From the NCBI GenBank assembly GCA_020722015.1, contig DYLQ01000008.1, positions 1 through 64,000 on the forward strand: a DNA stretch of 64,000 nucleotides. Reading direction: 5' to 3'. Of the stretch, positions 4,385 to 26,191 are shown piece by piece. The position numbers and the translations under genes were made by a program. The DNA is from Thermotoga sp. GTDB lineage: Bacteria; Thermotogota; Thermotogae; Mesoaciditogales; Mesoaciditogaceae. The notes below the pieces were generated by a model, which was not told the DNA's origin, ran no database searches, and worked only from the letters and a program-made list of their open reading frames with translations. How positions within the stretch are numbered: the stretch's first letter is position 1; each line of letters opens with the position of its first letter.

Positions 4385-5904
4385 GATTTTATCCTTTCTT
4401 TTAAAGATTTGTAAGTCAAACGATACTTCTCAGCTATGGATATGGCATAAGACAATCCATCCGATGGCTTTCTCAAAACCTTGTAAATTCTTACAGATGG
4501 ATTGTTTGGATCTACGGTTCCAACCATACTTACAACTTTTTCATTCATACAGGTTATCTCGTCTATGAATGTAACCCATACGGCCAAAAGATCAAGATCG
4601 TATATAATCGCCATTACCTTTTTGCTCAAGTAAAGCGCATCTTCCAAAGTCGTTGAAGAAAACATCTCGTTCATTATGATTATACTTTTAGAGGTCGCTT
4701 TTTTCAGAATAAGGTTTATCCTGAACAGATCATCTTCGAGTTTCCCGCGGAGATTGTTTATATTTTCTTCTCTTTCAAAGTGCGTAAAGATTTCATCGAA
4801 TAAAAAAAGTTTGGCTTCATTTCCAGGTACGGGGCAACCGATGCTTGCAAGATAATGAAGTTGTCCGAAAGTTCGCGCAAATGTCGTTTTACCGCCTTGG
4901 TTTGGCCCCGTCACAGCGAAAATGCGTTCGTTACCTTTAAGATAAAAATCGTTGGTTACGACTGGCTTTTGATCGTCTGCCAATTTATCGGCAAGCGAAA
5001 GGTCGAAGGTTTTGTTGGCGTAAATCTCCTTGTCCTGTGTGATCTGTGGAATACAAAATTCAAGTCCGTTCCTTTTGAATTTGGATATGTATTCGATGTA
5101 AGAGATGTAAAATTGAATTTCTCTGTCAAAATCGGAGATCATTTCGTTCATGAAATTCGAATTATCAGTGTAATATCTGTCAAGCTTTTCAAAAATATCT
5201 GGATAAAGTAACGCAACAAAATCAAGTATTTTGGCCTCAACGTGGTTCATGTCCGGAAATTCGTTGAATGTAACTGTGTAATCTTTGACGGATCCCTGCC
5301 TGAATTTTTCAAATATTTCCTCTATTTCCTGGCCATAATCTTTTTCGGAGTGATCTCTTTTTACCTTGATCGCATTCCCTTTGACAAACAAAGTATATTT
5401 TATCTGTAGAAGTTCATTTTTTAACGTCTCGGTTTGAGCGATAAGAGACTTAAAATCGTTTGAATCGACGTAATTTTTCAAAAGCTTAAAAAAAGATGTA
5501 AAACCTCTCGATTTCAGTTCAACGGAAAGTGCTTTTTCAAGTTTTTTCACTGCATCACAATAAATTTCAACTCCGTCCAAAAACCATCTTTCTTTCTGGT
5601 ATTTGTATGACAGTTTATCCGATTGCTCAAAAGATCTTCTCACCATACGCATTTTATCTTCGAATTTCAATATGTTTTCAAACAAGTCCTCGTTTTCAAG
5701 ATCTCGCATCACTTCCTGCCTGTATTCTATCGAATCTATATCTTCAAGTTTCGTGTAGAAATATGGTTTCAAGTTGTATTCTTCCTTTTTGGATGTAACG
5801 GAATTCACAATCTGATCGATGTTAAGATCCACAAAAAAATCTGGAATCAGAGCGTTTTTCGCCTTTATTTTGTCATTTTCATTCAAGAAAAGTATGCTGA
5901 ACAT
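4381..5904 (-). CDS. MutS-like ATPase, first of a pair, fluoride-riboswitch controlled
   Basis: A 507-residue protein with a long helical region (60-290) and a C-terminal MutS-family ATPase: Walker A TGPNQGGKTT (332-341), FDEIFTHFEREE (about 369-380), and Walker B SIIIMNEMFSSTT with Asn where MutS has Asp. It lacks MutS domains I-II. The real start is ATG 5904, seven bases after AAGGAGG; the upstream in-frame ATG at 5943 lies inside the riboswitch terminator and is not a start. It is first gene of a two-gene operon. The role in fluoride stress is inferred from the riboswitch only. Confidence 0.87.
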   Translation of the reverse strand: MFSILFLNENDKIKAKNALIPDFFVDLNIDQIVNSVTSKKEEYNLKPYFYTKLEDIDSIEYRQEVMRDLENEDLFENILKFEDKMRMVRRSFEQSDKLSYKYQKERWFLDGVEIYCDAVKKLEKALSVELKSRGFTSFFKLLKNYVDSNDFKSLIAQTETLKNELLQIKYTLFVKGNAIKVKRDHSEKDYGQEIEEIFEKFRQGSVKDYTVTFNEFPDMNHVEAKILDFVALLYPDIFEKLDRYYTDNSNFMNEMISDFDREIQFYISYIEYISKFKRNGLEFCIPQITQDKEIYANKTFDLSLADKLADDQKPVVTNDFYLKGNERIFAVTGPNQGGKTTFARTFGQLHYLASIGCPVPGNEAKLFLFDEIFTHFEREENINNLRGKLEDDLFRINLILKKATSKSIIIMNEMFSSTTLEDALYLSKKVMAIIYDLDLLAVWVTFIDEITCMNEKVVSMVGTVDPNNPSVRIYKVLRKPSDGLSYAISIAEKYRLTYKSLKERIKS

Positions 5905-17482: not shown

Positions 17483-17986
17483 TTAATCTTTGAAAATGGC
17501 ATTATTTCTGATGGTCAAATATTGTCCAAATTCACCGGGTTTCGGAGAATGAGAATTAAATGCGTTAAAAAAGCTAACTATCCAAATTTTCCCTTTATTT
17601 TCTACTTTCCATCCATCTTGTATTTCCGGCTCTTTTAAAAATATCAATTTAAAGAAGTATCCATCTACAGATTTGCCAAGCTCAAAATGCTCATCTACTT
17701 TATCAATTTTGAATATTTCGAATTCAGGTGGCGAGACCGAGTTAGCGGCTTTTAAGAAATCATGGTCTAAGATCTCATCTGTTGATAACAAGAAAAGGCC
17801 TGCTCTGTCTATTACTCCTGTTGGGAGGGCCTGACCGAAAGACAATTTCAGCCTTTGATGAAATCCCTCCGTCATTTTAAATCTTACGTCGGTTCTTCTC
17901 AAAACTCTTTCGATCATTCTTATCATTTCATGATTCGAAAGATATCTCAAAAGTCCGATTCTTTTGTAATGGAAAAGATATTTCAC
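17483..17986 (-). CDS. DUF2344 (TIGR03936) family protein
   Basis: A 167-residue protein beginning MKYLFHYKRIGLLRYLSNHEMIRMIERVLRRTDVRFKMTEGFHQRLKLSFGQALPTGVIDRAG, the typical start of the radical-SAM-linked DUF2344 family. In many bacteria it is fused to, or next to, the TIGR03960 radical SAM protein; here the two overlap by four bases. Biochemical role unknown; linkage to ribosomal protein L21/rne loci in other bacteria suggests RNA-related work (family knowledge). Confidence 0.88.
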   Translation of the reverse strand: MKYLFHYKRIGLLRYLSNHEMIRMIERVLRRTDVRFKMTEGFHQRLKLSFGQALPTGVIDRAGLFLLSTDEILDHDFLKAANSVSPPEFEIFKIDKVDEHFELGKSVDGYFFKLIFLKEPEIQDGWKVENKGKIWIVSFFNAFNSHSPKPGEFGQYLTIRNNAIFKD

Positions 17987-19743
17987 GAAATACCTTCCTG
18001 AATTACGTTATCAACGTTGAATTTTTGACATACACCGCATCCGGTACATCCATCTCTGCAATCCGGAGTTAATCTTTCTTTTATGGATTTCAGATGTTCT
18101 GACCATAAGAAGCCTTTCGAAATTCCAGAGTCTACAAAATCCCATGGAAATGGATCTTTGAAGGACTTTGCGCTCATGATCTTTTGAAGATCTATTTTCT
18201 TGTCTTCGAAAATTTTCATCCATTTGCCTGGATTGAACATCTCGTCCCAGTCTGCGAAAATGAGATCTTGCTTTTCTGCTTCTTCTACGACTTCTCCAAT
18301 TGCCTTACCGCCTCTTGAAAGTACACCTTCTATGATCGCCTTGTAAGGATCTGTGAAGTTGAGTTTTGCAAATCTTCTCGTCCAATTTAAAAGTTTAAAC
18401 CTTCTGAAAGCTTCATCCGGCATTATTTGGGCTTCAAATTGAAATGGCGTGTGTGCCTTTGGGACAAAGACCCCTATCGTTGCCGAAATCTCATGAAAAC
18501 CCATGCGTTTTATCTTATCGATTAGAATGCCTATGGCTTTAACGTCTTCGTCTGTTTCGGTTGGAAGGCCTATCATGAAGTAGAGCTTTATCTTTTTCCA
18601 ACCCTTTTCGATTGCCAATTTTGCCGCCGAAAATATATCGTCTTCGGTTATTCCCTTGTTTATGACATTTCTAAGCCTTTGAGTTCCCGCTTCCGGCGCG
18701 ATCGTAATTCCGCTTTTCCGGATCGTACCTATTGCTTCTGCAATCTCAACGGTAAGAGCATTGGCCCTTGTGGATGGAATTGAGAAAGAGGTATCTGTGA
18801 TCTTTTTCAAAAGATCGACAGTATCGTTTATTTGGCTGTGATCTGCACTACTTAAAGAAAGCAGACCGAGTTCTTCATAACCTGTTCTTTCTACGATCTT
18901 TTTTGATACGTCGTAAATTTCGGTCGCACTTCTCTCCCTTACCGGTCTGTATATCATACCTGCCTGACAGAATCTGCATCCATTCGTGCATCCTCTCATT
19001 ATCTCGACGACGCCTCTATCGTGTACTATTTCCGTGTATGGAATTATCTGATCTACAGGAGCCCAATCCATCTTCATTTCAGAAATGATCCTTTTTCTAA
19101 CCTTGTTGTTGTATCTGGGAACGTAAACACCTTCTATTTTACTTAAGAATTCAAGTTTTTCAGAGCGTGATCTTCCTTTTTTAATAGCGACAAGCATTTC
19201 CGTTGTTGCCTCTTCACCATCTCCGATGAGGAATGCATCCACGAAATCTTCAATAGGGGTAGGGTTAAAGGTGCATGGTCCGCCTGCTATGACTATCGGA
19301 TCTTCATCGGATCTGTGAGCGCTTTTTATGGGAATGTCACCCAGCCTTAGCGCTCTTAAGACGTTTGGATATGACATTTCATACTGAAGTGTAAACCCTA
19401 TGACGTCGAATGCTTTTACGGGAGTGTAAGTTTCATAGGAATAAAGTGGAATACCCTTATCGATCATGATTTTTTGCATGTCAGGCCATGGTAAGTAAGC
19501 GCGTTCGCATTTTGCAAAATCCGTTTTGTTGACGATATCGTATAGAATCTTTACTCCAAAATGAGACATCCCCACATCATAGAGATCAGGGAAAATAAGA
19601 CACATGGAAAGTTCGGCATCTTTTTTTACAGAATTATACTCGTTGCCTATGTACCTGCTTGGTTTCTCAACTTTATCAAGTATATCAACGAGTTTTTTAA
19701 GAACGTTCGAATCCTTTTTCACTCTTTGGCGCTCATCTCTCAC
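17983..19743 (-). CDS. B12-binding-type radical SAM protein (TIGR03960 family)
   Basis: A 586-residue protein. The N-terminal 200 residues resemble a B12-binding-like Rossmann domain (MCLIFPDLYDVGMSHFGVKILYDIVNK), followed by the radical SAM core with MRGCTNGCRFCQAGMIYRPVRERS (CxxxCxxC, about 252-258) and a C-terminal Cys cluster DCRDGCTGCGVCQKF near residue 570. It forms a translational pair with DUF2344. The start GTG 19743 overlaps the activase gene end. The reaction is unknown. Confidence 0.9.
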   Translation of the reverse strand: MRDERQRVKKDSNVLKKLVDILDKVEKPSRYIGNEYNSVKKDAELSMCLIFPDLYDVGMSHFGVKILYDIVNKTDFAKCERAYLPWPDMQKIMIDKGIPLYSYETYTPVKAFDVIGFTLQYEMSYPNVLRALRLGDIPIKSAHRSDEDPIVIAGGPCTFNPTPIEDFVDAFLIGDGEEATTEMLVAIKKGRSRSEKLEFLSKIEGVYVPRYNNKVRKRIISEMKMDWAPVDQIIPYTEIVHDRGVVEIMRGCTNGCRFCQAGMIYRPVRERSATEIYDVSKKIVERTGYEELGLLSLSSADHSQINDTVDLLKKITDTSFSIPSTRANALTVEIAEAIGTIRKSGITIAPEAGTQRLRNVINKGITEDDIFSAAKLAIEKGWKKIKLYFMIGLPTETDEDVKAIGILIDKIKRMGFHEISATIGVFVPKAHTPFQFEAQIMPDEAFRRFKLLNWTRRFAKLNFTDPYKAIIEGVLSRGGKAIGEVVEEAEKQDLIFADWDEMFNPGKWMKIFEDKKIDLQKIMSAKSFKDPFPWDFVDSGISKGFLWSEHLKSIKERLTPDCRDGCTGCGVCQKFNVDNVIQEGIS

Positions 19744-20779
19744 TGTTTATGATTTCTGATTTTCTGTCAACTCTTTCATTTTTTCTCACTTTAGATGTAA
19801 GCCTGTTGGACCACTTGCCACATCTGTCACCCCAGTAGGCTATGGTTTCACCGTTTTCTATAACTTCGTAAACTTCGCAGTTATTTGCGCAACCATCGCA
19901 GTAGAAGACGCGCGTTTTGTGTTCGAGTTCTGTCACTTTGAACCCTTTGAAGTTCGTTTTCTGACCTGTGATCTCAACTTCTCTCTTGGCAAGCATGGCG
20001 ACACCCCAAGCACCCATGAGTTTGTTGTTTTTAGGGACTATAACTTCTGTTCCAACGGCATTTTCAAAGGCTTTGACTATACCGATGTTTTCCGAAACTC
20101 CACCTTGAAAGACGAATTTCGGTAATAATTCTTTTCCCCTTGCAAGATTGTTGAGATAATTTCTCACGAGACTTTCCGAAAGTCCAGCTACTATATCTTC
20201 AGGAGTTGCTCCCATCTGTTGTTTGTGGATCATGTCCGACTCCGCAAAAACCGTACATCTTCCCGCTATTCTGACTGGATTTGTGGCTCTTAACGAATAA
20301 TCCCCGAACTTTTCTATGTCAATTCCGATTCTTTCAGCCTGGTGATCGAGAAAAGATCCCGTACCGGCGGCACAAACGGTATTCATGGCAAAATCAGTAA
20401 CGGCACCGTTTCTTATGAAAATTATCTTTGAATCTTGCCCTCCTATTTCGAAGATCGTGGATACATCCGGGACTTCGTGAATAGCAGCGTAAGCATGGGC
20501 AGATATTTCATTTTTTATGATATCGGCCCCCACAACAACTCCGGCAAGTTGCCTTCCGCTTCCCGTTGTTCCAACGGCTATGACCTCTATGTCACCAAAT
20601 TTTGAAGTGATGACGTTGTACGCCTCAATCATACCTGATTTTATCGTATCGATTGGATTTCCTTTTGTTCGAATGTACAGACCTTCCACTATCTCATCAT
20701 TTTCATCCACAAAAATGACCTTAGTCGTTACAGATCCAACATCTATTCCCAAAGCAACCTGTTTTGACAATTTTTTCAC
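19733..20779 (-). CDS. acyl-CoA dehydratase activase (BcrA/HgdC family)
   Basis: A 348-residue ASKHA-fold ATPase: phosphate loop LGIDVGSVTTKVIFVD (10-25), GTTGSGRQ, IFEIGGQDSKIIF, and NTVCAAGTGSFLDHQAERI with the bridging-cluster cysteine. C-terminal VFYCDGCANNCEVYE adds more cysteines. Family members use ATP hydrolysis to inject a low-potential electron into 2-hydroxyacyl-CoA dehydratases. Here it stands next to two dehydratase-related genes of the kind usually fused to it in large activase-like proteins. Substrate unknown. Confidence 0.88.
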   Translation of the reverse strand: MKKLSKQVALGIDVGSVTTKVIFVDENDEIVEGLYIRTKGNPIDTIKSGMIEAYNVITSKFGDIEVIAVGTTGSGRQLAGVVVGADIIKNEISAHAYAAIHEVPDVSTIFEIGGQDSKIIFIRNGAVTDFAMNTVCAAGTGSFLDHQAERIGIDIEKFGDYSLRATNPVRIAGRCTVFAESDMIHKQQMGATPEDIVAGLSESLVRNYLNNLARGKELLPKFVFQGGVSENIGIVKAFENAVGTEVIVPKNNKLMGAWGVAMLAKREVEITGQKTNFKGFKVTELEHKTRVFYCDGCANNCEVYEVIENGETIAYWGDRCGKWSNRLTSKVRKNERVDRKSEIINSER

Positions 20780-20783
20780 CTCT

Positions 20784-21938
20784 TTAATTTTTAACCGTTA
20801 CATGTGATTCTTTCTCTTCGTGCGTCTTAATTTGCCTTCTGCTTTTTATCATATCGACGAAAGCTTCAAGTCTTGTCACGAATCCTGCCTCCCCCGTTTG
20901 TTCATCGAAAGCAAGACTTAAGACCGGAATATCGTAATCTTCGCTAACTTTTGTGAGTATCTCCTTTGCCGCTGTTTCAGGCAAACATCCGAAAGGTTGA
21001 GCTTGAATGACCCCATCGTAACCGGCTTTTTTGTAGAGAATGGTGTTCATTATGCTTTCTTGACCATCCCCGCCTATGAAAAAGTCAAGATATCCCTTGT
21101 TAACCTCAAGCATGTGCGCTTTATGGGATTTTGCCTTTATGAGTCTGTCAAGAGTCCAATTTGTGACTCTCAAAGATCTGTCAACGTCAACTCCCATGTA
21201 CGCCAGTTTTTTCTCTATATCGAGATTGTTACTGTAATCCATGAGTATATAGGCTTCACCGACAAGACCTACCTTGGGAAGATCGTCGCGCTCAACGTGG
21301 GGATTTTTATCCATCTTTTCGATTTCTTCGTTCAGTATTTTTTTGATAGCCTTAACTTTATTAGGTGCATGCCTTATTCTCTCAATGGCTTTATCGAAAA
21401 TTCTCTCCGTAGATCCGGAGACTTTTTCTCTCGGAATAAGATGGTAAAGTTTTTTCTCAAGTTGTTCTGTCGCGTAAACCTTCCAGCCTGCTATCACAAA
21501 GGCTTTCACCACAATCCACGGAGCATGCCATCCAGTTAACTTTATGAGCTTCTTGAAGAATCTGGGAATTCCCTTGTAAAGCGGCGGATAAATGCCTTCG
21601 ACGTTTACGACTTCAAAATTGGTAAAGCCCTTGTCTTTTAAAATCTTGTAATACAACGGACTGTAATACCCAAATCTGCAAGGTCCATAGCTTTCAAGAG
21701 AAACCATTTTGAAATACCTGTCCGGATTTTTTTCAAGTACTCTTTCAAATTGCCCTAACAATATCTTAAATGGAAAACACATGTATTCCGGAGAATTGGA
21801 AACACCTTCTTTTATCGTTTCGTTATTTGTGGGTTCTGGCATTATGACATCATATCCGAGTATTTGAAAAAAACTTTCAAAGGCTGCGTACGTGTACCCC
21901 ATTCTCGGTACCGTGTAAGTTATTTTCTTGTGTGACAA
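20784..21938 (-). CDS. 2-hydroxyacyl-CoA dehydratase-related protein (COG3580/DUF2229 type)
   Basis: About 384 residues: TVPRMGYTYAAFESFFQILGYDVIMPEPTNNETIKEGVSNSPEYMCFPFKILLG, and near the C-terminus GVIQAQPFGCLPETAAKEIL and DIPVLSLAFDEQTGEAGFVTRLEAFVDMIK. These blocks match the HgdB-like domains that bind a 4Fe-4S cluster. I prefer TTG 21938, eight bases after GAGGTGAT; the ATGs upstream overlap that site. It shares its C-terminal block with the next gene upstream, so the two are paralogues. Confidence 0.78.
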   Translation of the reverse strand: MSHKKITYTVPRMGYTYAAFESFFQILGYDVIMPEPTNNETIKEGVSNSPEYMCFPFKILLGQFERVLEKNPDRYFKMVSLESYGPCRFGYYSPLYYKILKDKGFTNFEVVNVEGIYPPLYKGIPRFFKKLIKLTGWHAPWIVVKAFVIAGWKVYATEQLEKKLYHLIPREKVSGSTERIFDKAIERIRHAPNKVKAIKKILNEEIEKMDKNPHVERDDLPKVGLVGEAYILMDYSNNLDIEKKLAYMGVDVDRSLRVTNWTLDRLIKAKSHKAHMLEVNKGYLDFFIGGDGQESIMNTILYKKAGYDGVIQAQPFGCLPETAAKEILTKVSEDYDIPVLSLAFDEQTGEAGFVTRLEAFVDMIKSRRQIKTHEEKESHVTVKN

Positions 21939-22920
21939 GACCATCACCTCTTTTCACGCGTATCAAGTCGATGAAAGCCTCTATTCTCGTTGCAAGTCCA
22001 GCATCTCCGGTCTGCTCATCGACTATTATGTGCATAACGGGTTTTCCAACCTCTTTCGAATAAAGATCGAGGAGTTTTTGATATATAGAACTTATTCCGC
22101 AGTTAAAAGACGATATGCTTATAACTCCATCGACGTCAGGTGAATCTATGTAATACATTCCGCCCTTTGCGGCCGCATTTGCCTGATACCAGAAAAGGTC
22201 CTTTATCATGTATTTGGAGTAATGATTGTAAACTCTTGGATTCAACATATCGGTCGCGACTATGCCAACATTGAAATCTTCAAGTTTGGATATGATATCT
22301 CCATTTGTAAAGGTGTCATAAACATCGTACGGAAATCCAGCAAGAGCAACTGTATAGCGTTGTTTTGAGACCGGCTTTTTTATCAACGTTTCGAGATCAC
22401 GTATGTTTTTGACCACATCAAGAAAGGTATGACCGGATCTTAAAGATTTTGTGGCGAGCTTTTGGTACTCTATGCCAACTTTAACAGCTGACTTTATTTT
22501 TTCATCAGAATCTCCAAGTTGTCTTCCTATCTCTTCAAATGCCGTGATTATAGGCTTTTCTCCTTGTCGAGTGTAAAAAGTCGCCGTTAAAATTCTGTTT
22601 GCATCTCTTACGAATGCACTTTTCATCAAGTCTGGAAGGGCAGCCAACTTTGGACATGTGTATTTGTACTTTTCCTCGCTTGCAATTCTTGGGACAAAAA
22701 CGAGATCAACATCCTTTTTATCAAGCAGATATTTGACGTGCCCATGGAAAACCTTCACCGAAATACATATATCGTCAACGGAATGAGAAACGCCTAAGTT
22801 TATGATTTCTTTGTTCGTTGGAACTGACAATCTTAACTCGTGTCCAAGTGACGAAAAGAACCCATACCACATGGGATAATAAACGTAAAAATACAATGCC
22901 CTTGGAATTCCTATCTTCAA
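21877..22920 (-). CDS. 2-hydroxyacyl-CoA dehydratase-related protein (COG3581 type)
   Basis: A 347-residue paralogue of the following gene: MKIGIPRALYFYVYYPMWYGFFSSLGHELRLSVPTNKEIINLGVSHSVDDICISVKVFHGHV, then VDGVISISSFNCGISSIYQK and PVMHIIVDEQTGDAGLATRIEAFIDLIRVKRG. Start TTG 22920 has AGGTGG upstream. The three genes in order equal the domain order seen in single large proteins elsewhere. The 5' 50 bases and the leader are part of a 102-bp tandem duplication. Confidence 0.78.
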   Translation of the reverse strand: MKIGIPRALYFYVYYPMWYGFFSSLGHELRLSVPTNKEIINLGVSHSVDDICISVKVFHGHVKYLLDKKDVDLVFVPRIASEEKYKYTCPKLAALPDLMKSAFVRDANRILTATFYTRQGEKPIITAFEEIGRQLGDSDEKIKSAVKVGIEYQKLATKSLRSGHTFLDVVKNIRDLETLIKKPVSKQRYTVALAGFPYDVYDTFTNGDIISKLEDFNVGIVATDMLNPRVYNHYSKYMIKDLFWYQANAAAKGGMYYIDSPDVDGVISISSFNCGISSIYQKLLDLYSKEVGKPVMHIIVDEQTGDAGLATRIEAFIDLIRVKRGDGLVTQENNLHGTENGVHVRSL

Positions 22921-23075
22921 AGTCTACCACCTCTATTCACAAACATAAAATATTTTACCACAAAGCCAGTTAATGGGATAATAAACGTAAAAATACAATG
23001 CCCTTGGAATTCCTATCTTCAAAGTCTACCACCTCTATTCACAAACATAAAATATTTTACCACAAAGCCAGTTAA
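22871..23075. repeat. 102-bp exact tandem duplication
   Basis: 22871-22973 and 22973-23075 are identical by eye (unit period 102, sharing one A). The unit covers the first 17 codons of the COG3581-type gene, its TTG start, ribosome site and 50 bases of upstream sequence. Identity over the whole unit points to a recent event or an assembly artefact. Confidence 0.9.
22933..23022 (-). pseudogene. truncated duplicate start of the COG3581-type gene
   Basis: Outer duplicate copy: a TTG start with the same AGGTGG site encodes the first 16 residues of the gene (MKIGIPRALYFYVYYP), then runs into 13 foreign residues and stops at TAG just before the intact copy's ribosome site. If transcribed, it would be translated as a 29-residue leader peptide. 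Confidence 0.55.
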
Positions 23076-23081
23076 AATGAT

Positions 23082-23103
23082 AAAGGGCGCATATGCGCCC
23101 TTT
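23082..23103. terminator. bidirectional hairpin terminator
   Basis: AAAGGGCGCAT/ATGCGCCCTTT is a perfect palindrome with T-rich flanks on both strands. It ends the protease operon on the minus strand, 20 bases after the protease stop. Confidence 0.75.
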
Positions 23104-23123
23104 ATTCTACAAAATCAAACTCA

Positions 23124-24506
23124 TCAATGCCCGCTTTGAGCGGCCAAATTCCACAGATACATGAATTGTTCCAGAGACCCTCCGCCTATTTTACCGGTCT
23201 TCGGCACACCTATATCGTACTTTGATATGGTTTCGGAAGATGGGTTGGTTTGGTGCAGGGCATCTACGAGCAAGTTCCAATCTTCCATGTTGACGTACCC
23301 GTCACCGTTGAAGTCGGCTTGCGAGTAAGCGCTGTTGACCGTCTTGAAGATTGGAACGTAGAACCAATTTCCGTAAGATTCAAATTTCCATGCCGGCACA
23401 TTTCCGGATGCGTATTCTTGAGGTGTTACCCATGGCTGCAGCCAATAGCCGTTCATTCCCCAGCTTGTACCCCATGAGTTTCTCACTATCCAGACGTTGT
23501 AAGTTTGGCCGTTTGAGGCTTGATAATTGTTTATCCATCCTACGATTTGAACGGCATGTCCTCCGACATATGGGTTACTGGATGAGCCTGGATTTGTCGG
23601 AACGTAAACACCGCTCGTGTAATAATCGAAACTTGCAGGAACAAGGAACGAAACGCTTACAGATCCGTACTTCATTATCATCGTCTTTATCGCGTTTATG
23701 TACTGATTATAACTCACGTGGTAATAGTATGCCTCTTCGGGAGCACTCAAAAGCAAAAGTGTTCCTTGAGAGTATGTTAGATCATTTTGCCAGTTTGAGT
23801 TTTGAGGATCCCATTCAATCCAAGGAGAATTCTCGTAAGAGATGGTTGGAAAGTCCGTCGCCGGAGGCATTCCGTACCTTATGGCGTTGTACATCGCAAA
23901 GTACTGGTTACCGCCTGCATCTAAATTGGAATCCTGAATCACCCAACCGTTTGCCGCAATCAAAAGATTCCAATCGACATCATGGTATGCGGCAAACTGC
24001 GTCGAAAGGACGGGAATATTCGATGATGAAACCACGCCTTGCACCGCAAGAGCCGTCTCAAAGGTTTCTGTCGTCGAGAAAGCCCAACACGTTCCGTGGT
24101 ACCCCTGATCTTTAACGGGTGTAACGTAAGAAATGCCTGGATAATTCACGAATTGATCGCTAAGATCGTAAGCAGACGGAAGATTAGATGCATTCATCGT
24201 CAAAGGATTGAACATCGTGTAGGATCCCATAAGCATATCATCCGTTGTCGTAAGCTTTTTCGTGAGAAAAGCAGAGACAAAGTCTTTCGGTAAAGGTCTC
24301 CATCCGTTCATCACGGAGAGTTGACCTATCGTTTTTCCATCGAATCCGTTAAGACCGGCCACCCACGGAAGACCATTTTGAACATTTTGGGCGTTTATCT
24401 CGTTGACAACAGCCGTACTCAGTACGGTCTGTTCGTTCAAAGAAAGGCCAAACGCGAAGATCGCCATTATCATCAAAGATACAAGAACCAATGTCATCTT
24501 TTTCAT
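23124..24506 (-). CDS. secreted papain-family (C1A) cysteine protease with dockerin-like domain
   Basis: Preprotein of about 460 residues. Signal peptide MKKMTLVLVSLMIMAIFAFGLS, a propeptide-like stretch (GLNGFDGKTIGQLSVMNGWRPLP), then the catalytic domain with VKDQGYHGTCWAFSTTE (active Cys), GGHAVQIVGW (His) and IVRNSWGTSWGMNGYW (Asn). The C-terminal ~70 residues hold two EF-hand-like repeats, ADFNGDGYVNMEDWNLLVDAL and YDIGVPKTGKIGGGSLEQFMYLW, as in dockerins. ATG 24506 with GGGGTGATC is preferred over ATG 24524. It is translationally linked to the lipoprotein upstream. Confidence 0.85.
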   Translation of the reverse strand: MKKMTLVLVSLMIMAIFAFGLSLNEQTVLSTAVVNEINAQNVQNGLPWVAGLNGFDGKTIGQLSVMNGWRPLPKDFVSAFLTKKLTTTDDMLMGSYTMFNPLTMNASNLPSAYDLSDQFVNYPGISYVTPVKDQGYHGTCWAFSTTETFETALAVQGVVSSSNIPVLSTQFAAYHDVDWNLLIAANGWVIQDSNLDAGGNQYFAMYNAIRYGMPPATDFPTISYENSPWIEWDPQNSNWQNDLTYSQGTLLLLSAPEEAYYYHVSYNQYINAIKTMIMKYGSVSVSFLVPASFDYYTSGVYVPTNPGSSSNPYVGGHAVQIVGWINNYQASNGQTYNVWIVRNSWGTSWGMNGYWLQPWVTPQEYASGNVPAWKFESYGNWFYVPIFKTVNSAYSQADFNGDGYVNMEDWNLLVDALHQTNPSSETISKYDIGVPKTGKIGGGSLEQFMYLWNLAAQSGH

Positions 24507-24520
24507 ATCGATCACCCCGC

Positions 24521-26131
24521 TCATTTCTCTACGCTGCCAACGGTAACGATGGGTACGGATCTCAGTATCACAACGCCGTCGATATTTCTCAAAGAATTAT
24601 CTTTGAATACAGGATTGAGGTTACTGTATCCTTCGTATCCGAAGTATCCTTCGTAGACTATGCCGGCGTAGGCGTAAGATCCCGTGTAAGTTGCCGGTAC
24701 ACTGCACTGAATTTGAACTGCTACGTCGGTTGCCGACTGTGCAATCTGAGCTCCTGGCACAGGATTTACAAATCCCCTGTAAACAGTCAATATACCGGTT
24801 GTCGAATCGTATTTGTACGTCGAAAGATTAACCTTACCGGCAATCATATCTGGGAATGTGACGTTGTCAAGCTGAAGACCCGGTGCAAGTTGTACTGAGA
24901 ACTGCATGTACATGAGTCCGTTGTTGGTCGTTATATCCGTGTGATCGACGTTGTCGTTTACTATCTCATGCGTGCCGGATGCATACGCCGTAAGGTTTGG
25001 GGCATAGACTGAAGCCGTGAACATGCCTCCGGTTGCAACTGATGATGTGTTGTATCCGACGTACATCTGAGGCATATTGGCTGTGCCATACCTTTCGCTC
25101 AAAATAAATGGAGCTATGTTGAACGCACCGTAAGTTCCAAGCCAGTTAACGGGGTAAAGTCCTATGGCATAAGTTTTTCCAAATTGAAAAGCAGGAATAT
25201 TGTAAGCGTTGCCGCTAAGATCGTACACTTGCATGTTTGCAGGTCCGGTTGCGGAAACTATCATATCGGTATTGGTATTTGGATGTGGGATCAAATACCA
25301 TTGTTGAGCGGTAGAGGTTGCCGGAAGCACTACCCATTGGCCTGTCGAAGAGATGTTAAGTCTGTATCTTATTCCCGTTCCCAAAGGCCCGTAAAGATAA
25401 AATCTCACAAGCAATGCGCCAAGCTTTTGATCGGAAGCCCAACTTATCATGGCGTATCTTCCCTGTGGATGGGAACCTATGCCATAAAATCCACCTTCGG
25501 TTCTGTCTGAGACTGCTATGTATACGGTAGGTCCGGCAGTCAAGACTTCGAAGTTGTAAGTGGCTGGCGGCACATAAGAATTGGCGATTTTAACCATGAA
25601 GGTGTAATTTCCGTCCGCTAAATCAGTCAAAGTTGCGCTTGTGGCGGTTGTGGTTATCCATGTCGCACCGTTCGTTATTGAATAAAGATAAGTATGTGGT
25701 TTGTTATCGAGTGATTCCCAACTTACGTTAACTTTATCCGTCGCGTAAGTCGTTGCCGAATTCGTTATTTGCAAAGATGTAACGTTAAAAGTTGTGGTAT
25801 CCTTGCCGGTTCCACCAAGATTTGTTTTTCCAACGATTTGAGCCGTCCAAACTCCCGCAGTTGCAACAGAAGTTGTGAAGGAAGTTTGATTAGAGTTACT
25901 AAGCAACGTTATCGGTCCAACCCCTGATGCAGACAACGTCAGCGTATAGGTAAGTCCATTTTCACCTGACCATGCAAAGTTTATCGGTTGACCGACCGGA
26001 TATGCCGACGTGTTGATGGATGTAGGCGCTGTGAATCTAACAGTCGGCGGCATGAGAAAACATCCGCTCAAAATGACTGCGATCACGAGCGCAGAAATAG
26101 ATAGCAAAACAATCTTACCCCTTACTTTCAA
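24521..26131 (-). CDS. lipoprotein with Ig-like domains and a possible cohesin-like domain
   Basis: A 536-residue protein with lipoprotein signal ending VILSGC (lipobox). Residues 30-200 read as two Ig/fibronectin-like beta sandwiches. The C-terminal third (MPQMYVGYNTSSVATGGMFTASVYAPNLTA...GLMYMQFSVQLAPGLQLDNVTFPDM...GILTVYRGFV) has the strand pattern of cohesin/CBM-type sandwiches. The next gene ends in a dockerin-like domain, so this lipoprotein might hold the protease at the surface (inference). It starts at TTG 26131 behind AAGGGG and has a strong promoter. Confidence 0.7.
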   Translation of the reverse strand: MKVRGKIVLLSISALVIAVILSGCFLMPPTVRFTAPTSINTSAYPVGQPINFAWSGENGLTYTLTLSASGVGPITLLSNSNQTSFTTSVATAGVWTAQIVGKTNLGGTGKDTTTFNVTSLQITNSATTYATDKVNVSWESLDNKPHTYLYSITNGATWITTTATSATLTDLADGNYTFMVKIANSYVPPATYNFEVLTAGPTVYIAVSDRTEGGFYGIGSHPQGRYAMISWASDQKLGALLVRFYLYGPLGTGIRYRLNISSTGQWVVLPATSTAQQWYLIPHPNTNTDMIVSATGPANMQVYDLSGNAYNIPAFQFGKTYAIGLYPVNWLGTYGAFNIAPFILSERYGTANMPQMYVGYNTSSVATGGMFTASVYAPNLTAYASGTHEIVNDNVDHTDITTNNGLMYMQFSVQLAPGLQLDNVTFPDMIAGKVNLSTYKYDSTTGILTVYRGFVNPVPGAQIAQSATDVAVQIQCSVPATYTGSYAYAGIVYEGYFGYEGYSNLNPVFKDNSLRNIDGVVILRSVPIVTVGSVEK

Positions 26132-26162: not shown

Positions 26163-26191
26163 ATTATACTTCAATTTTCTTTGTATGTCAA
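26163..26191 (-). promoter_or_regulatory. strong promoter of the lipoprotein-protease operon
   Basis: On the minus strand TTGACA (26186-26191), exactly 17 bases, TATAAT (26163-26168). It is a near-consensus housekeeping promoter. Confidence 0.85.

Follow-up and report, generated by a model that had tools for sequence, protein, structure and literature searches.

How might a bacterium hold one secreted protease on its envelope with a cohesin and a dockerin if it has no cellulosome? This question is raised by a two-gene unit at 23124-26131, on the minus strand, of the window analysed here, a stretch of 64,000 nucleotides (nt) from contig DYLQ01000008.1 of assembly GCA_020722015.1. The unit consists of a lipoprotein gene (24521-26131, 536 aa, TTG start) followed by a gene for a papain-family protease with a C-terminal dockerin (23124-24524, 466 aa). 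The genes lie exactly at the coordinates given by a first-pass annotation made from the sequence alone, and all features of the unit located below lie on the same minus strand. The host is a heat-loving Thermotogota bacterium (Mesoaciditogaceae) without a cellulose-degrading machine; the nearest named relatives of its genome are Athalassotoga saccharophila and Mesoaciditoga metagenome-assembled genomes, and the protease is 84-89% identical in loci L054-L056. Our analysis indicates that the two proteins very probably form a one-cohesin, one-dockerin complex, through which the secreted, cathepsin-B-like enzyme would be tethered to the envelope in the absence of a cellulosome.

The lipoprotein begins with a signal peptide carrying the lipobox LSGC (L21-S22-G23-C24, 26060-26071, read directly from the translation), and 15 of 15 listed relatives have a lipobox too; by this lipobox it is a bacterial lipoprotein, with predicted lipid attachment at Cys24. 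Its C-terminus had been described in the first-pass annotation as a beta-sandwich compatible with a cohesin, a proposal left open to refutation if structure prediction gave an unrelated fold. A cohesin fold came out. The domain covers residues ~350-532 (24536-25084) and is modelled mostly at pLDDT 75-94 in the AlphaFold2 model (mean pLDDT 77.7), with drops to 45-64 in blocks near 381-400 and to 50-69 in blocks near 491-530. When model residues 350-536 were compared in a domain-resolved manner with known structures, the first 39 rows were all cohesins (Z 12.7 to 11.0), mostly scaffoldin cohesins plus a cohesin-like module from C. perfringens. The fold was decided by this comparison and not by the Foldseek E-value ranking, in which the multi-domain model matches complement chains first and a cohesin appears at row 7. 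On its own sequence, the window lipoprotein has no match to the Pfam model PF00963 (Cohesin), and relatives were therefore used together with the fold. A profile of 17 lipoproteins matched type II scaffoldin cohesins in the PDB (E 0.008, profile positions 355-473), and PF00963 was found at E<=1 in four of the 17 (best 7e-7), its cut-off of 24.1 bits being exceeded in L059 (30.0) and, for the same gene, in genome G007 (33.9). Residues N379, Y408, Q410, G453 and D511 are nearly invariant, and D518 and G519 are invariant. By modelled fold and by sequence homology in relatives, the lipoprotein C-terminus is a cohesin as annotated, with dockerin binding as its predicted function. Ahead of it, an Ig/PKD-like beta-sandwich is predicted at residues ~25-120 (25772-26059), with weak Pfam matches in family members and a match to 2c26 (Z 10.9 over residues 25-120) that forms row 40 of the structural comparison, directly after the 39 cohesins. 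A second, fn3/Y_Y_Y-like sandwich follows at residues ~121-200 (25532-25771; PF07495 Y_Y_Y in 6 of 17 lipoproteins, best 1.6e-10), and an all-beta linker region, drawn from the AlphaFold2 secondary structure, at residues ~201-349 (25085-25531).

The protease contains both dockerin peptides quoted in the first-pass annotation, DFNGDGYVNMEDWNLL and IGVPKTGKIGGG. Scored alone, the window's dockerin reaches E 0.035 and 14.7 bits against the PF00404 cut-off of 22.9, and it is with relatives that the C-terminal dockerin is confirmed. PF00404 is present at E<=1 in 16 of the 17 members of the protease alignment (best 1.6e-8); two of five relatives scanned singly reach the cut-off (23.9 and 25.3 bits), two others score 20.8 and 19.8, and one has no match at E<=0.1. 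The best PDB match of the dockerin family profile is the cellulosomal dockerin 2y3n (4.5e-8). Repeat 1, with the calcium loop D404-D415 (DFNGDGYVNMED, 23280-23315), is a first loop-helix repeat with calcium ligands, as in type I dockerins, and D404, D408 and D415 are invariant in the 17- and 18-sequence alignments, as strictly as the active site. The single match to the EF-hand motif D-x-[DNS]-x-D-G-x-[IVL]-xxx-[DE] in the six frames of the window lies in the protease gene, and none of 50 mononucleotide shuffles contains one; chance resemblance of the loop is ruled out by these shuffles together with the conservation in the alignments. Repeat 2 (degenerate loop D437-S450, 23175-23216), correctly called weaker in the first-pass annotation, has T443 and S450 where relatives have Asp, both acidic positions being lost in the window's genus, as well as a two-residue insertion present in most relatives (alignment A7). 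Since L060 keeps a canonical second loop (GDGKVNGND), we read it as a real, decayed repeat; in sister genera the acidic positions are intact. The dockerin does not appear in the structural-search rows of the protease model, a list filled by the catalytic domain. As a separate observation, genomes of family f10 (e.g. G086:C1:24708-24821) contain a single dockerin-like EF-hand stretch in open frames of ~900 aa without a protease-profile match.

The catalytic domain (residues ~119-396, 23337-24170) is cathepsin-B-like. It matches PF00112 (Peptidase_C1, E 4.8e-24), and the best structural match of the protease AlphaFold2 model (mean pLDDT 70.7) is cathepsin B (cathepsin B1, 4i05), with Z 22.1 and an rmsd of 2.7 over 235 residues. 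The catalytic residues Q140, C146, H323 and N349 are invariant in the 17-sequence alignment A1, and this Gln, Cys, His, Asn active site on a papain fold makes the enzyme a member of papain family C1. Its N-terminus (24171-24524) comprises a signal peptide without a lipobox match (~residues 1-27) and a pro-region (~28-118). A weak Propeptide_C1 match at residues 35-77 (E 0.0016, below the Pfam cut-off) suggests that the protease is made as a zymogen, and the model aligns with pro-cathepsin B from residue 94.

Whether the two modules belong together was approached through gene order in 103 genomes of the class, in which matches to a protease profile were sorted by dockerin and cohesin domain profiles. 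The protease profile matched in 32 of the 103 genomes, and 29 genomes hold 30 dockerin-bearing proteases. A cohesin lipoprotein lies directly upstream on the same strand in all 26 dockerin-bearing proteases with upstream sequence (25 genomes); when starts are assigned by a simple rule, the gap ranges from -4 to +15 nt. The other four of the 30 genes, in G003, G020, G061 and G069, are cut by contig ends (the cohesin of G020 stands at the end of another contig) and were left out, as were G021 and the second places in G024 and G066, which are remnants or partial matches. The family cohesin occurs in 27 of the 103 genomes, in a single copy each except for two in G067. Across all genomes, 26 have both partners, one has the cohesin only (G055), three have the protease only (all at contig ends) and 73 have neither. 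In G055 (L231, 983-2154), a broken cohesin lipoprotein gene is followed by the start or remnant of a protease gene, and the pair seems to have decayed together. The gene neighbourhood differs between families while the pair itself stays, in seven families of one class. In L064 (3765-9608) and L188, from the same contig, the pair is tandemly duplicated head to tail as a unit, the second copy being strongly diverged. The papain and cohesin trees share most main groups, which fits a unit whose two genes move jointly, with G007, G011 and G059 on long, unsure branches. The pairing proposed in the first-pass annotation is thus supported by the cohesin fold, by conserved adjacency amid differing neighbourhoods and by genomes that, with few exceptions, hold a single cohesin and a single dockerin. 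Separately, the one-contig genome G021 carries a protease-gene remnant with several stops (L198, ~5317-5664) and no family cohesin.

Within the window, the two genes look like one short operon because the lipoprotein stop overlaps the protease start by 4 nt (ATGA) and both a promoter match and a terminator-like hairpin were predicted by consensus scan. The sigma-70 type match TTGACA-17-TATAAT (12/12, 26163-26191) stands before the lipoprotein gene and ends ~30 nt upstream of its start; the intrinsic-terminator-like hairpin of 11 pairs (23080-23105) lies 3' of the protease stop, and an equal position is visible in L054 and L055.

A scan of 84,980 species yielded 79 loci from the best 80 of 109 confirmed matches, many of them from genomes of the class survey, so that the two sets are not independent. 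Among these loci, 15 hold dockerin-bearing family members, all from Thermotogota; three of the 15 lie at a contig end, and the other 12 (13 genes) have the cohesin upstream. No cohesin was detected at E 0.01 in the other 64 loci.

The same class provides a counterpart without a dockerin. Seven further papains of this family, in G001, G002, G003, G007, G024 and G083 (two) (loci L189, L190-L194 and L197), have a homologous catalytic domain that falls into one tree with the dockerin-bearing enzymes. They differ in that all seven carry their own lipobox and no dockerin, and no cohesin was found in the fetched flanks of any of the seven. No lipobox is present in 26 of the 27 dockerin-bearing proteases with an N-terminus. 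The exchange suggests that the dockerin holds the enzyme on the envelope, a role played elsewhere by lipidation. The dockerin-less papains form one clade in the joint tree (support 100/99), and because of this Fisher's test of lipobox against dockerin (p ~1.5e-6) was not used as evidence.

In the window genome (96% complete), no PF00963 match was found at E<=10, and the family profiles detected one cohesin and one dockerin. The multi-cohesin scaffoldin and the many dockerin enzymes of a cellulosome are not present there, which fits the placement of the pair outside cellulose degradation in the first-pass annotation. Across the class, PF00963 matches at E<=0.01 were found in 16 of 103 genomes, some of them being this lipoprotein itself. 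In other Thermotogota genera, large open frames (~1,200-1,650 aa) with a Pfam cohesin above the cut-off were seen at L133, L134, L136-L140 and other loci.

Several results weigh against a tether of this kind. The window's own cohesin and dockerin are both under the Pfam cut-offs, with relatives and fold carrying the assignment. In the window's genus, calcium loop 2 is degenerate. In a mirror-tree analysis, dockerin and cohesin distances correlated at 0.77 and at only 0.17 with the catalytic domain held constant, a value reached by 10 of 2000 permutations; the partial correlation of papain and cohesin given the dockerin, at 0.59, exceeds it, leaving a weak dockerin-cohesin co-evolution signal that is not specific to the pair. 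The lipobox/dockerin swap, confined to one clade, counts as one evolutionary event and not seven, and the dockerin-bearing second copy of L188 has a lipobox-like LLAC in its signal peptide. Finally, papains with a dockerin-like C-terminus and no family cohesin detected nearby occur at L071 (7710-9164, Planctomycetota) and, in Phycisphaerae, at L079 (2979-4874) and L089 (2-2620).

The decayed second loop and the weak dockerin-specific co-evolution would suit a simpler explanation, in which the EF-hand pair is merely a calcium-dependent stabiliser of a thermophilic protease, the cohesin-like domain binds something else and the genes are neighbours through a common pathway. Cohesin-like beta-sandwiches are reported to have other roles, as in TMEM132 (PMC6030884). 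We nevertheless regard this explanation as improbable, since the two interacting domain types stand within one operon in every one of the 26 cases, occur 1:1 per genome and have been duplicated together, and in paralogues that lack the dockerin the papain domain is still intact and a lipobox takes the dockerin's place.

Adjacent, tightly spaced genes and Ig-like N-terminal domains might also point to a lipoprotein that acts as an inhibitor or chaperone of the protease, its Ig-like domains working on the active site, instead of as an anchor; Ig-fold inhibitors of the chagasin type act on the active site of proteases. This is very improbable, however, given that the part common to the families is the C-terminal cohesin and not the Ig domains, that no inhibitor family is among the Pfam matches of the protease and the lipoproteins, and that the dockerin-less papains lack such a cohesin partner. 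It is just as hard to credit that the dockerin serves a larger cellulosome-like scaffold with the lipoprotein as one of several cohesin partners, an idea for which the other, larger Pfam cohesin proteins of some class genomes speak, but which does not agree with the single cohesin of the lipoprotein and the single family cohesin and dockerin of a window genome devoid of PF00963 matches at E<=10.

A dedicated tether in trans thus remains our preferred reading. Computation shows directly what the domains are, that the catalytic residues are intact, that the lipoprotein has a lipobox, that the two genes are paired and that a swap with lipid-anchored paralogues exists. According to the proposed mechanism, the lipoprotein would be exported and lipidated at Cys24, with its Ig-like sandwiches serving as a stalk and its C-terminal cohesin as a socket. 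The protease would be made as a cathepsin-B-like zymogen whose export relies on an ordinary signal peptide, and its dockerin, binding calcium mainly in the first loop, would plug into the cohesin of its neighbour, so that the enzyme, once activated, is held on the envelope, at the surface or in the periplasm. As the two repeats are unequal, a single binding mode of the dockerin is expected. The anchored enzyme probably has a scavenging or processing role.

Dockerin-bearing peptidases are already known to be common in cellulosomes: 71 dockerin-associated putative peptidases are reported for B. cellulosolvens (PMC5590126) and 16 peptidase modules for R. flavefaciens (PMC2930009). Two of the closest cases are such peptidases. 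The R. flavefaciens cysteine peptidase RflaF_05439, with an X-dockerin (PMC3573020), reportedly binds the surface cohesin ScaE (PMC5590126, PMC12484212), and it is likewise a secreted cysteine peptidase whose C-terminal dockerin is captured by a surface-anchoring cohesin, a capture that is predicted for the pair described here. It differs in having an NlpC/P60 fold, an X-module and a large cellulosome, whereas the enzyme described here has a papain/cathepsin B fold and, as its predicted anchor, a lipoprotein encoded with it in a dedicated operon. For an S8 protease of C. thermocellum with a double dockerin, cell anchoring has been proposed (Chen et al. 2024, via PMC12484212); there, too, the dockerin would attach a protease to the cell and not to a cellulase scaffold, but the enzyme is subtilisin-like, its dockerin is double and the organism is cellulosomal with many cohesins.

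Isolated cohesins and dockerins in organisms without a cellulosome offer another parallel. Such modules have been recorded outside cellulosomes in both archaea and bacteria, the archaeal ones having been verified to bind (PMC9012536), isolated modules are described in A. fulgidus (PMC6394049), and such modules were surveyed by Peer et al. 2009 (cited in PMC2930009 and PMC9012536). Their implications are called unclear (PMC9012536), whereas here a fixed papain cargo, a partner and an operon recur in seven families. A literature search of titles and abstract starts returned no such protease-lipoprotein pair in Thermotogota, whose outer sheath is the toga (PMC3387000); an earlier listing in Peer et al. 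2009 is possible. Dockerin proteases on cohesins being known from cellulosomes, what is new here is a stand-alone cohesin-dockerin protease operon without a multi-cohesin scaffold.

For isolated cohesins and dockerins, whose role beyond cellulosomes is mostly unclear, the operon here predicts the partner 1:1 in many members of the class; two short recombinant domains are therefore enough to test binding, calcium dependence and specificity directly. Thermostable cohesin-dockerin pairs are, by its own account, lacking in the designer-cellulosome field (PMC6394049), and about two dozen pairs can be drawn from this family, in a class with many thermophiles. The sister clade, lipidated and without a dockerin, provides a natural comparison for asking why an enzyme is anchored in trans as opposed to in cis. 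We suggest tentatively, rating it slightly below even chances, that the pair is a cohesin-dockerin system in its simplest complete form, passed on as a unit through Thermotogota, by inheritance or transfer, independently of the cellulosome and evolutionarily interchangeable with a direct lipid anchor, which would make it a general calcium-controlled alternative to lipidation.

Some minor features were observed around the pair. Between mnmG and the pair, L054 (4658-6271; DHH/CBS/DRTGG/DHHA2 domains) and L055 (4685-6289) have a gene that the window lacks. At 22871-23074, 102 nt are perfectly duplicated in tandem, a stretch that takes in the leader of the next gene (21877-22920) and its start; the repeat is single-copy in L054 and L055 and represents either a recent duplication or an assembly artefact. 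The block beside the pair (17983-22920) comprises two tandem DUF2229/HGD-D paralogues in overlapping frames, a BcrAD/BadFG-type ATPase and a radical SAM protein; it is kept in L054 and L055, and L058 and L061 have it too, though not with the same radical SAM gene.

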